Below are positions 10,092 to 12,732 of a stretch of 64,000 nucleotides of DNA, piece after piece. The notes under the pieces are model-generated. The model was not told the origin of the DNA. It saw only the letters and a list, made by a program, of their open reading frames with translations, and searched no databases. The translations under genes and the position numbers were made by a program. How positions within the stretch are numbered: the stretch's first letter is position 1; every line of letters begins with the position of its first letter. The DNA is from Pseudomonadota bacterium (lineage in GTDB: Bacteria; Pseudomonadota; Alphaproteobacteria; Micavibrionales; Micavibrionaceae): contig JAKQEE010000258.1 of the NCBI GenBank assembly GCA_029558635.1, forward strand, positions 109,052-173,051, given 5' to 3'.

Positions 10092-10982
10092 ATGGATGGG
10101 TTAGTTCAAGTTTCCCAGAGTGAGGTTTTTGCGCTTCTCCAGCGTTTTGTCTCATTCTATGACGGCGTTCTGATTGATTTTGACGGGACGCAGGTTAAAG
10201 CCGAAGAGACGCGGGCGCAGATTCGTGTCAACATTCTGAAAGATGCCGGAATCGATGTCGGGTACGACGAGATGTTCCGTCTTAAGGGTCTGGAACCGGA
10301 TCAAATCCTAGATCGCCTTGCCATGGAAGGCCGTTTGTCTTCGGTTCCGGGGAGCAGAATTACCACCCTTCGCAATGATATCGTCACCCTTCATAGGGAA
10401 AAATATGCTGCGGCTTTGGAAGAGGCTGGTCCCGAGGTTCGTCGCGACGGGATGGTCGAGTTTATGACGGCATTCAATCATGCTGCAAAGCCGGTGATTA
10501 CCGTTTCCAATTCACCTTTGGCCATTGTCGATTTCGGAAGCCGGATCGCGGGGTATAAGGACAGCGGTCTGGTGAGTGGTTTCATCACGGCAGATGACGT
10601 TTTTGCTGCAGGGAAACAAAAGAAACCCTTTCCCGATCCGTTCGATATGGGGATTGAGTTGGCGTTCACAGTGGCGGGGGTCAAAGGTAAACGGTATCTG
10701 ATTATCGACGATTCGCTGGTGGGATACAATTCCGCTCTTGCCGCCGGAAAGGTCGCAGGCGTCGAATGTCATGTCATGGGGATTTATTACGATCAGGTGA
10801 GTGAAGAACCAGATTCGAGATGTCGTTTTGCGGTCAAGGCCTCAGGTGGTTTGATGGATTTCTTCACGGATGCGGCGCTGGCGTTCAAGGTTGCGGGGCG
10901 TGACGTGTCCACTGCCAGTGAAGCGGAAATTCTGCGGCAGATGGCACAAATTCATAGAGGGCGCAGTTTGGCGTATCCATAA
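10092..10982 (+). CDS. HAD superfamily hydrolase
   Basis: A 296-residue protein with the four HAD motifs in order: DFDGT near residue 27, a Ser/Thr motif in TVSNSP, a lysine in KKPFPDP, and acidic IIDDSLVGYNSALAAG. The cap insert after motif I is alpha-helical, as in phosphoglycolate phosphatase or beta-phosphoglucomutase relatives. The substrate cannot be told from sequence. It stands alone between a divergent lipoprotein gene and a convergent histidine phosphatase gene. The last residues share an 18-base DNA repeat with the next gene. Confidence 0.8.
   Translation: MDGLVQVSQSEVFALLQRFVSFYDGVLIDFDGTQVKAEETRAQIRVNILKDAGIDVGYDEMFRLKGLEPDQILDRLAMEGRLSSVPGSRITTLRNDIVTLHREKYAAALEEAGPEVRRDGMVEFMTAFNHAAKPVITVSNSPLAIVDFGSRIAGYKDSGLVSGFITADDVFAAGKQKKPFPDPFDMGIELAFTVAGVKGKRYLIIDDSLVGYNSALAAGKVAGVECHVMGIYYDQVSEEPDSRCRFAVKASGGLMDFFTDAALAFKVAGRDVSTASEAEILRQMAQIHRGRSLAYP
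10948..10965 (+). repeat. 18-bp direct repeat, copy 1
   Basis: The sequence aaattcatagagggcgca occurs here inside the HAD gene and again at 11097-11114 inside the histidine phosphatase gene, 149 bases away. The two genes are on opposite strands, so the repeat encodes different residues in each. Confidence 0.7.
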
Positions 10983-11000
10983 GCGGGTTCTCGGAAGCGG

Positions 11001-11606
11001 CTATTTAGTAGGTCTTGGCCCTTCGAAAAGCGCAATTGCTAGGGTGGAAAGGTTTGTATGGTCCCTGTATTGCCAACGCCCTTTCTGATCGGGCCAAAAT
11101 TCATAGAGGGCGCAATTGACGATCCTGACTTTTCCGTGGCCAGTATAGGAAAAAAAGGCTTCGAAAATTCCCCCGTGGCATGTCAGCAAAGGAATTTGAT
11201 CCGTTTGGCTGAGGCACTCGGCGATGGCTTTTTGTGCACGGGTGAAGAAGTCTTTCTGCGATTCGCCGTTTGGCGGGTCCTCGCCATGTTTCATTTCCGA
11301 TTTTATGATGTCCCAGTTCCGACCTTGCCAATCACCGTAATGTTGCTCTTTTAACCCCGAGTGGGAGATCATTGGCAGGTTTAGGGTGCTGTTGACCAGA
11401 TCGGCTGTGTCTTTTGCGCGGGACAGCGGGCTGTGGAAGATAATCTGCGGTTTTCGGTCTAGTTCCATAAGGGTTTTTTGTGTCAGAACGGCTTGTTCCC
11501 GCCCTTTTTCCGTTAAGGGTGTGTCCAGGCTTCCGGAGGCGTAGCCTTCGGCATTGGCGACCGTTTCGCCGTGGCGGAGCAGGTAAAAGGACTTTGGCGG
11601 AATCAT
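11001..11606 (-). CDS. histidine phosphatase family protein (phosphoglycerate mutase-like)
   Basis: Start ATG 11606 (MIPPKSFYLLRHGET) is chosen. The track start at 11675 is a TTG with a lysine-rich extension unlike the family. The 201-residue protein carries the catalytic RHGE motif near its N-terminus, SPLSRAKDTA, and a second histidine in LTCHGGIFEAF. These fit the cofactor-dependent phosphoglycerate mutase/phosphatase fold. The physiological substrate is unknown; many small members are broad phosphatases. It is convergent with the HAD gene. Confidence 0.82.
   Translation of the reverse strand: MIPPKSFYLLRHGETVANAEGYASGSLDTPLTEKGREQAVLTQKTLMELDRKPQIIFHSPLSRAKDTADLVNSTLNLPMISHSGLKEQHYGDWQGRNWDIIKSEMKHGEDPPNGESQKDFFTRAQKAIAECLSQTDQIPLLTCHGGIFEAFFSYTGHGKVRIVNCALYEFWPDQKGRWQYRDHTNLSTLAIALFEGPRPTK
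11097..11114 (+). repeat. 18-bp direct repeat, copy 2
   Basis: This is an exact second copy of the 18-base sequence at 10948-10965. It falls in the minus-strand histidine phosphatase gene, encoding part of NCALYEFWPD. Confidence 0.7.
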
Positions 11607-11784
11607 GTTGGAAAAAAACCTGTGTTTTTTGGCGTCTTTCTGCGTTTTTTTCTCATGCCGTTCAGGATTTGTCAATCTTTCGCGTGTTTAATTGAGGGTG
11701 GAGCAATGCTCCTCCAGCTGGCGTAAAGCAGGCGGGTTGAATGTGGGATTATTAGAGTAACACTCGTATTTTAAGGCTTAGTAC

Positions 11785-12732
11785 ATGAGATTTGGTGTTT
11801 TTTCAGGTTTTAGGCATTTTCTTTCTTCTCACCGTATTGGCGAGGTTCTGGTTCGCCGCGGGCTGTTGACACCCCAGCAGTTGAAAGAGGCTCTTTTGCA
11901 GCAAAAGCGCGGGCTTGCTTCCGGCAAAGCTCTCGGGGAAATTCTTGTCTCCCAAGGACTTATTTCCAGATGGGATCTCAAGACGACTTTGGCTGTCCAG
12001 TCTTCGCTGCGTGTGGCGGCGGCGACCATGGCGGTTATGGCGTCGCTCAGCAGTTTTGGGGCCAAGCCGTCCCATGCCGGTTCTATGAAGGATATTCCGT
12101 CATCGATTACTTTGGCATCTGTCTCGCTTAATTATGCCGATGGGGTTGTCCAGACTGCCTTGTTCGGGACTGGGGAAAAACGTTCGGGTGATCTTTCTGC
12201 TTTTACCAAATGGCGCGACATGTTTGACCGTTTTCAGCGCGATGTTGCGAATGGTTCCAATCAGGGTGTGATCCAGAATTGGCGTAACGGTCTCGCGCAG
12301 TTTCGCGGCCAGTCTCTGGTTGATATGGCCAATGGCGTCAATGATCTGATGAATAAGGTTCATTATATCGGTGACAATCGCAATTGGGGTAGGTCTGATT
12401 ACTGGGAAACTCCGGTCGAATTTATGACCCGTGGCGGAGATTGCGAAGATTTTGCGATTGCCAAATATGCGTCGTTGCGGGCGCTGGGCGTTCCTGAATC
12501 CTTGCTGCGCGTGGCGATTGTCAAGGATCTGGAGAAGGGCATTCCGCACGCGATCCTGATCGTTTATACCGAGCAAGGGCCGATGGTTCTGGATAACCAG
12601 ATCAAGCGTATGACCCGGGCCAGTGCGATTTCGCATTACAAGCCGATCTTTTCGATCAACCGTTCCGCGTGGTGGGTGCATACCGATCAGTCGGCGGGAA
12701 GTGCAACACAAATTGCTTCGGCGTCGAGATAG
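11785..12732 (+). CDS. MshEN-like domain fused to LapG-type transglutaminase-like cysteine protease
   Basis: A 315-residue two-part protein. Residues 16-75 hold two tandem repeats of the MshEN pattern (RIGEVLVRRGLLTPQQLKEALLQQ and ALGEILVSQGLISRWDLKTTLAVQ), a fold that binds c-di-GMP in some type II secretion ATPases. The first repeat keeps the Arg, while the second has Ala in its place. A hydrophobic stretch (about 77-92) and a signal-like AKPSHA follow. The rest is a bacterial transglutaminase-like cysteine proteinase with Cys220 (GDCEDFA), His255 (HAILIV) and Asp270 (LDNQ), as in LapG, the periplasmic protease that releases biofilm adhesins. Topology, ligand binding and target are inference. 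Confidence 0.8.
   Translation: MRFGVFSGFRHFLSSHRIGEVLVRRGLLTPQQLKEALLQQKRGLASGKALGEILVSQGLISRWDLKTTLAVQSSLRVAAATMAVMASLSSFGAKPSHAGSMKDIPSSITLASVSLNYADGVVQTALFGTGEKRSGDLSAFTKWRDMFDRFQRDVANGSNQGVIQNWRNGLAQFRGQSLVDMANGVNDLMNKVHYIGDNRNWGRSDYWETPVEFMTRGGDCEDFAIAKYASLRALGVPESLLRVAIVKDLEKGIPHAILIVYTEQGPMVLDNQIKRMTRASAISHYKPIFSINRSAWWVHTDQSAGSATQIASASR

Follow-up and report, generated by a model that had tools for sequence, protein, structure and literature searches.

A putative c-di-GMP sensor domain ahead of the export signal of a predicted adhesin-cutting protease in Micavibrio and its relatives

Introduction

In the Lap-type systems described so far, which release giant adhesins under the control of c-di-GMP, the receptor is a transmembrane protein of its own, either LapD or, in sulfate reducers, DvhD. 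A gene from a member of the Micavibrionaceae raises the question of whether such a receptor can form part of the protease itself. It lies in a 64,000 nt stretch of DNA, hereafter the window (assembly GCA_029558635.1, contig JAKQEE010000258.1, positions 109,052 to 173,051, forward strand), as an ORF with an ATG start at 11785-12732 (+) that encodes 315 aa. A sequence-only reading of the window had proposed that this product links c-di-GMP sensing and LapG-type proteolysis in one chain across the inner membrane. The features of the gene are as follows.

11785..12732, +, whole gene, MshEN - signal peptide - BTLCP protease fusion of 315 aa; full-length orthologs in 53/58 related genomes, three split copies included
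11794..11829, +, basic amphipathic helix ahead of the MshEN bundle, residues 4-15; AF2 helix 5-14, G4 in 49/55 aligned rows
11833..12000, +, MshEN c-di-GMP-binding-type domain, residues 17-72; NF053729 51.9 bits (cut-off 38), ortholog profile to 5htl E=2.3e-16
11833..11904, +, MshEN motif I, residues 17-40 (R17 I18 G19 ... L33 L37 Q40); R/K17, G19 and L33 each 54/54, Q40 41/54
11929..12000, +, MshEN motif II, residues 49-72 (A49 L50 G51 ... L65 L69 Q72; Ala replaces Arg); G51, L/I69 and Q72 each 54/54, Arg at 49 in only 8/54
12001..12078, +, predicted signal peptide region, residues 73-98 (R76, hydrophobic 77-93, cleavage site S96-H97-A98); fast-evolving, [ASTVG]xA at the segment end in 54/54 orthologs, A98 in 51/54
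12079..12159, +, N-terminal linker of the predicted mature protease, residues 99-125 (GSMKDIP...); D103 in 45/54 orthologs, low pLDDT
12160..12690, +, BTLCP (LapG-like) protease domain, residues 126-302; PF06035 E=1.2e-20, LapG 4fgp Foldseek E=9.7e-12
12442..12444, +, Cys220, catalytic nucleophile, between D219 and E221, whose counterparts are calcium-site residues in DvhG; invariant (DvhG D316/C317/E318, PMC13090378)
12547..12549, +, His255, catalytic; invariant
12592..12594, +, Asp270, catalytic; invariant

Distribution and origin of the fusion

The fusion is ancient and conserved within the Micavibrio order. It is present in 53 of the 58 related genomes, a count that includes copies split by a frameshift, an alignment gap or a contig end (G011, G047 and G057), and the named records that contain it come from Micavibrio and related alphaproteobacterial MAGs. 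In a class-wide sample of 385 genomes, 97 had a BTLCP match, and the MshEN part was encountered only in the window's own family. A supposed fusion from outside the order (L100, Rhodospira-like) proved spurious, its N-terminal match being unrelated sequence that passes through a stop codon, and was excluded from all counts over 54 sequences. That the N-terminal part arose by chance or reflects a frame artefact is ruled out by its order-wide conservation and by the excess of synonymous over non-synonymous codon changes in the MshEN region of close relatives. The fusion likely arose once. The BTLCP domain tree is compatible with this, about three changes between fused and plain labels being required because two long-branch plain paralogs, whose joins are flagged as unreliable, sit within the fused clade.

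A Lap operon was looked for at the protease gene and was not found; the housekeeping genes hldE and pyruvate kinase adjoin it, with hldE in divergent orientation in 44/55 loci, and adhesin and transporter genes are not adjacent. In the window, HAD-like and histidine-phosphatase-like genes (10092-11675) occupy the place that hldE holds upstream of the fusion in most relatives. One genome carries, immediately behind the fused gene, a plain BTLCP gene with an ordinary signal peptide (L064:6109-6834), which suggests tandem proteases there. Stand-alone MshEN proteins of 101-112 aa, with no protease and ending just past a hydrophobic segment, are encoded in two genomes of one family (L146:4271-4576 (-) and L147:2379-2717 (+)), next to a gene for a TrmJ-like methyltransferase.

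The N-terminal domain and its ligand contacts

Profile search and structure prediction of the N-terminal region, the check that the sequence-only reading had proposed, both found MshEN similarity, and the tandem repeats it had claimed are genuine. Residues 17-72 align with the whole of NF053729 (cyclic di-GMP-binding domain, MshE-related; model 1-53), above its cut-off, and a profile of 16 orthologs matches the crystal structure of MshE in complex with c-di-GMP (5htl); the Pfam MshEN model PF05157 was absent among the matches listed for the fusion protein. The N-terminal bundle in the AlphaFold models (mean pLDDT 85.9 for the full protein) aligns structurally with 5htl (1.1 A across 58-59 residues), with probability 1.00 and 40% identity, and a separate model of 78 residues agrees with the full model, the top Foldseek matches being the MshE and PilF c-di-GMP complexes. 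Since the domain is so small, the Foldseek E-values for the bundle are weak (0.2-0.6), and the sequence profile therefore bears the weight. Like the MshEN/GSPII domains of MshE, TtPilF and NfrB, the fusion has the full 53-residue tandem motif, the same predicted four-helix fold and conserved contacts; unlike them, it has the N-terminal subdomain only, placed before a predicted Sec signal peptide. In PMC5013675 the partners given for MshEN comprise ATPases, glycosyltransferases and signalling domains, with no protease, periplasmic or other, among them.

All of the VcMshE ligand contacts G11, L25, L29, Q32, L39, G40, L54, L58 and Q61 are present, as G19, L33, L37, Q40, L50, G51, L65, L69 and Q72, respectively. 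Across the fused sequences R/K17, G19, L33, G51 and Q72 conform to the motif without exception (54/54), L37 and L69 are Leu or a close substitute in at least 53/54, and Q40 is retained in 41, with Ser in 10 of 55 aligned rows. The arginine of the second repeat is missing, as had been remarked earlier, both from the window protein, which has Ala49 there, and from 46 of the 54 fused sequences. The sequence-only reading held that binding may be altered by this loss, which taken alone is no argument against binding: in TtPilF GSPII-B both Arg positions are occupied by Lys/Leu, and c-di-GMP is bound at 6 nM (PMC11731258), so that the loss of the motif II Arg does not predict a loss of binding. This precedent covers lysine and leucine; with alanine or proline at the Arg position binding is putative. 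The spacer between the repeats, overlooked in the sequence-only reading, is 8 residues long in the window protein, three longer than the canonical 5 found in almost all relatives. With these two variants, Ala49 and the three-residue insertion, binding by the window protein is putative.

Entropy at the ligand-contact positions is lower than at the other positions of the MshEN domain (p=5e-6) and, with the Arg38-equivalent site left out, lower than in the buried core (p=0.006), a comparison internal to one family of related sequences, for which the p-values are indicative. On this pattern of conservation the ligand contacts are under strong selection, and the bundle would be expected to bind c-di-GMP. 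The domain might also serve not as a c-di-GMP regulator but to target or dock the protease precursor, for example, at the cell pole or at the base of a type II secretion system or type IV pilus. MshEN domains indeed occur mostly on the ATPases of type II secretion and type IV pili, and some, such as that of XpsE, no longer bind (PMC5013675); the absence of the motif II Arg from most orthologs and the serines at Q40 would fit such a role. A docking function is nevertheless quite unlikely, given that the two glycines, Q72 and the leucine clusters vary little or not at all, less than the hydrophobic core does, and that binding is possible without the Arg (PMC11731258).

Topology and the export signal

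The hydrophobic segment behind the bundle looks like a cleavable Sec signal peptide preceded by a folded cytoplasmic extension of 76 residues. Position 76 is Arg in 51 and Lys in 3 of the 54 sequences and is followed by about 17 uncharged residues, a run about as long as in ordinary BTLCP signal peptides and slightly less hydrophobic. A small-x-Ala motif ([ASTVG]xA), the rule for signal peptidase I, ends the segment in every ortholog, with Ala98 (-1) in 51/54 and A, S, V or T at position 96 in 53/54. The motif and the ordinary run length are the reasons for reading the segment as a cleavable signal peptide; cleavage by signal peptidase is thus likely, and the mature protease would probably be released after it. 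In codon changes among close relatives, the signal region evolves faster than the MshEN region.

In the AF2 model helix 62-90 extends without interruption from the fourth helix of MshEN into the hydrophobic segment, so that the ligand site would stand only a few residues from the membrane. This continuity could also belong to a stable anchor, the transmembrane switch of the sequence-only reading, in which the segment remains uncut, keeping the periplasmic protease tethered, and c-di-GMP binding shifts the position or activity of that protease. Long n-regions often reduce cleavage by signal peptidase. A membrane-anchored BTLCP is known in DvhG of D. vulgaris (PMC13090378). Such tethering is improbable here in view of the small -3/-1 residues kept in all 54 orthologs, and the Ala at -1 in 51 of them, within a segment that otherwise varies freely, and of an uncharged run like that of ordinary BTLCP signal peptides, if of slightly lower hydrophobicity. 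Of the proposed single chain across the inner membrane, the fusion is supported and conserved, but the lasting membrane link is weaker, since every one of the 54 orthologs has a textbook site for signal peptidase I, which implies that the protease is probably released and that control would more likely act at export or processing. The possibility, raised in the same reading, that the N-terminal region is cut off as a long signal peptide and never forms a folded domain in the cytoplasm, holds by half: cleavage is likely, but the ligand contacts of the domain are strongly selected.

The protease domain

Peptidase_C93/BTLCP (PF06035) matches residues 179-300 with 74.3 bits against a cut-off of 27 (E=1.2e-20), LapG structures are the best fold matches (Foldseek E about 1e-11; 4fgp, 9.7e-12), and the triad Cys220/His255/Asp270 is invariant across orthologs, all of which bears out the earlier assignment of a BTLCP protease with these residues. 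The LapG equivalog model NF045674 gave 107 bits, below its cut-off of 320. With LapG of Pseudomonas and Legionella the protein shares the BTLCP fold, the triad, Asp/Glu beside the Cys and predicted periplasmic export; it differs in that score, in the MshEN domain ahead of the signal peptide and in belonging to an order where the LapD periplasmic domain was not found. DvhG of Desulfovibrio vulgaris is likewise a LapG-like protease working with a receptor other than LapD, and it cuts [TAP]AAG in two large adhesins; it has no c-di-GMP domain, its receptor DvhD being a separate HD-GYP/dCache protein, whereas the fusion carries MshEN. HvyA of Caulobacter crescentus is also an alphaproteobacterial periplasmic BTLCP with the same triad but, unlike the fusion, has a plain signal sequence, is controlled by cell-cycle abundance and acts on capsulation.

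Candidate substrates and their secretion

As in the Lap system (LapG/LapD/LapA), the genomes encode giant type I-secreted adhesins with [TAP]AAG sites, together with a transporter of LssB/LapB type. Giant RTX-type proteins of Micavibrio genomes bear N-terminal [VI]EPAAG sites, the cleavage consensus of LapG and DvhG being [TAP]AAG (PMC13090378). Among the adhesin N-termini read, [TPA]AAG occurs in 30/30 and E[PT]AA[GA] in 28/30, as against 1.2% of shuffled N-termini. The adhesin module was found in 45/58 genomes, the window's own included, with a profile of four giant-adhesin N-termini, and the large adhesin model NF045619 scored 186 bits (cut-off 180). TIGR03375 (LssB/LapB-type transporter) exceeds its cut-off in 55/58 genomes (889 against 693 bits in the window's genome), and in 26 genomes no more than about 13 kb separates the adhesin from an LssB-type transporter, the remainder having the two mostly on different contigs.

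The statement that no LapA is visible is correct for the window but not for the genome, which encodes a giant adhesin with LapG-type sites; a genome search for LapA-type adhesins with a di-alanine site, suggested by the sequence-only reading, found [VI]EPAAG in giant type I-secreted adhesins. The 5' part of the adhesin gene is at a contig end (G000:C423:28834-32217), and a 3' adhesin part with TolC-, LssB- and HlyD-like genes behind it occupies G000:C422:1-8136, on the contig that also carries the protease gene, some 110 kb away; synteny with a relative (G031) suggests that both parts form one gene. An adhesin substrate for the protease is, on these predictions, very likely present in the same genome. 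The assembly (G000) has 439 contigs, a total length of 3.65 Mb and a contamination of 5.9%; the relatives searched are all smaller (1.3-3.2 Mb), and some of the G000 contigs may be foreign to the organism.

One genome that is 98% complete (G036) lacks the protease, the adhesin module and the LssB transporter, a single case of joint absence that is suggestive of a tie between the three. In 12 genomes that have the fusion, several of them less than 90% complete, no adhesin module was found. The LapA retention module NF033682 was over its cut-off in none of the 58 genomes and had no match in the four adhesin N-termini. Its sub-threshold matches (37/58 genomes) were considered as the prime substrate and rejected, these being FecR/BapA-prefix surface proteins, most of which, among 12 read, have no N-terminal [TPA]AAG.

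The best adhesin candidate in the literature is GMV0107 of M. aeruginosavorus ARL-13, an RTX protein of 2892 aa whose gene adjoins those of a type I secretion system; its expression index is 16.9 during attachment and 0.3 during the attack phase (PMC3189940). The adhesin of G031, with 2871 aa and a setting of the same kind, is taken to be its probable homolog by position and size. From the LapG-type sites in the giant adhesins, their cleavage by the protease is predicted. A capsule or other envelope factor has to be weighed as target, as for HvyA, which blocks capsulation and requires its Cys/His/Asp triad (PMC4241560), and the divergent hldE gene at most loci would agree with it; with LapG-type sites conserved in the giant-adhesin N-termini of the same genomes and a nearly universal LssB-type transporter, we hold this to be most improbable.

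Receptors and turnover of c-di-GMP

LapD_MoxY_N, the periplasmic domain of LapD, was found in none of the 58 related genomes, with matches in 4/7 non-Micavibrio genomes with plain BTLCP as the positive control; the remark that no LapD is visible in the window can accordingly be extended, for this domain, to the whole set. The window's genome has ten GGDEF and seven EAL matches (one sub-threshold), which implies that c-di-GMP turnover exists. One membrane protein of this genome (L135:646-2835) resembles LapD in layout: it has two membrane segments and a periplasmic loop of ~130 residues, its GGDEF is degenerate (GEDEF), and its EAL signature motifs seem intact. EAL matches comparable in length are found in three other genomes that were checked. 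The protein could be a trans-acting receptor. That it or its kin act on the protease as a separate, divergent receptor, with MshEN only a modulator, would have a parallel in D. vulgaris, which uses the unrelated DvhD (PMC13090378), yet is very unlikely: the intact EAL motifs suggest an active phosphodiesterase, LapD_MoxY_N is absent from the protein, and its gene is unlinked to that of the protease.

A model for c-di-GMP control of the protease

On balance we favour a Lap-type system for adhesin release whose protease has the c-di-GMP receptor built in: the ligand state of MshEN would control export and processing or the holding at the membrane, and the protease would cut the adhesin. The MshEN bundle would remain cytoplasmic and bind c-di-GMP, and its last helix, with contacts L65, L69 and Q72, would run directly into the Sec signal peptide by which the LapG-like protease leaves the cytoplasm. 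This direct passage is the reason for supposing that the ligand state at the bundle decides either export and AxA processing of the chain or the manner in which it is held at the membrane. The calcium-dependent periplasmic protease would then cut the [VI]EPAAG sites near the adhesin N-terminus, freeing the adhesin from a TolC-like channel so that the cell detaches. The step from binding to export control is conjectural, and its sign, by analogy with LapD, would be that high c-di-GMP switches the protease off. A fast cut by signal peptidase would cost the sensor its grip on the protease, and control must therefore precede cleavage.

A more specific version is plausible though tentative: MshEN would serve a Sec signal peptide as its cytoplasmic n-region, through which the second messenger directly gates export and release by signal peptidase, replacing LapD across the Micavibrio order and controlling adhesin release, possibly including detachment from prey. 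A c-di-GMP sensor would thus stand ahead of the export signal on a predicted adhesin-cutting protease, in place of the separate sensor of related systems. With sensing, export and proteolysis apparently united in one chain, the gating of export by c-di-GMP becomes directly testable on a single protein. The Micavibrio lineage includes epibiotic predators that stick to their prey, and the fusion is a concrete candidate for how such predators might control prey attachment and release. A literature search, conducted mostly outside subscription papers, returned nothing on MshEN with transglutaminase, on this architecture or on Micavibrio with LapG.

A further EAL-associated surface locus

An EAL gene lies immediately upstream of a gene for a FecR RTX-type surface protein both in the window's genome (L112, G000:C298:7063-8203) and in G031 (G031:C1:1809661-1811229), the surface protein of the latter being BapA-prefix-like. 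The pair is near a second LssB-type transporter and may constitute a second c-di-GMP-linked surface system.
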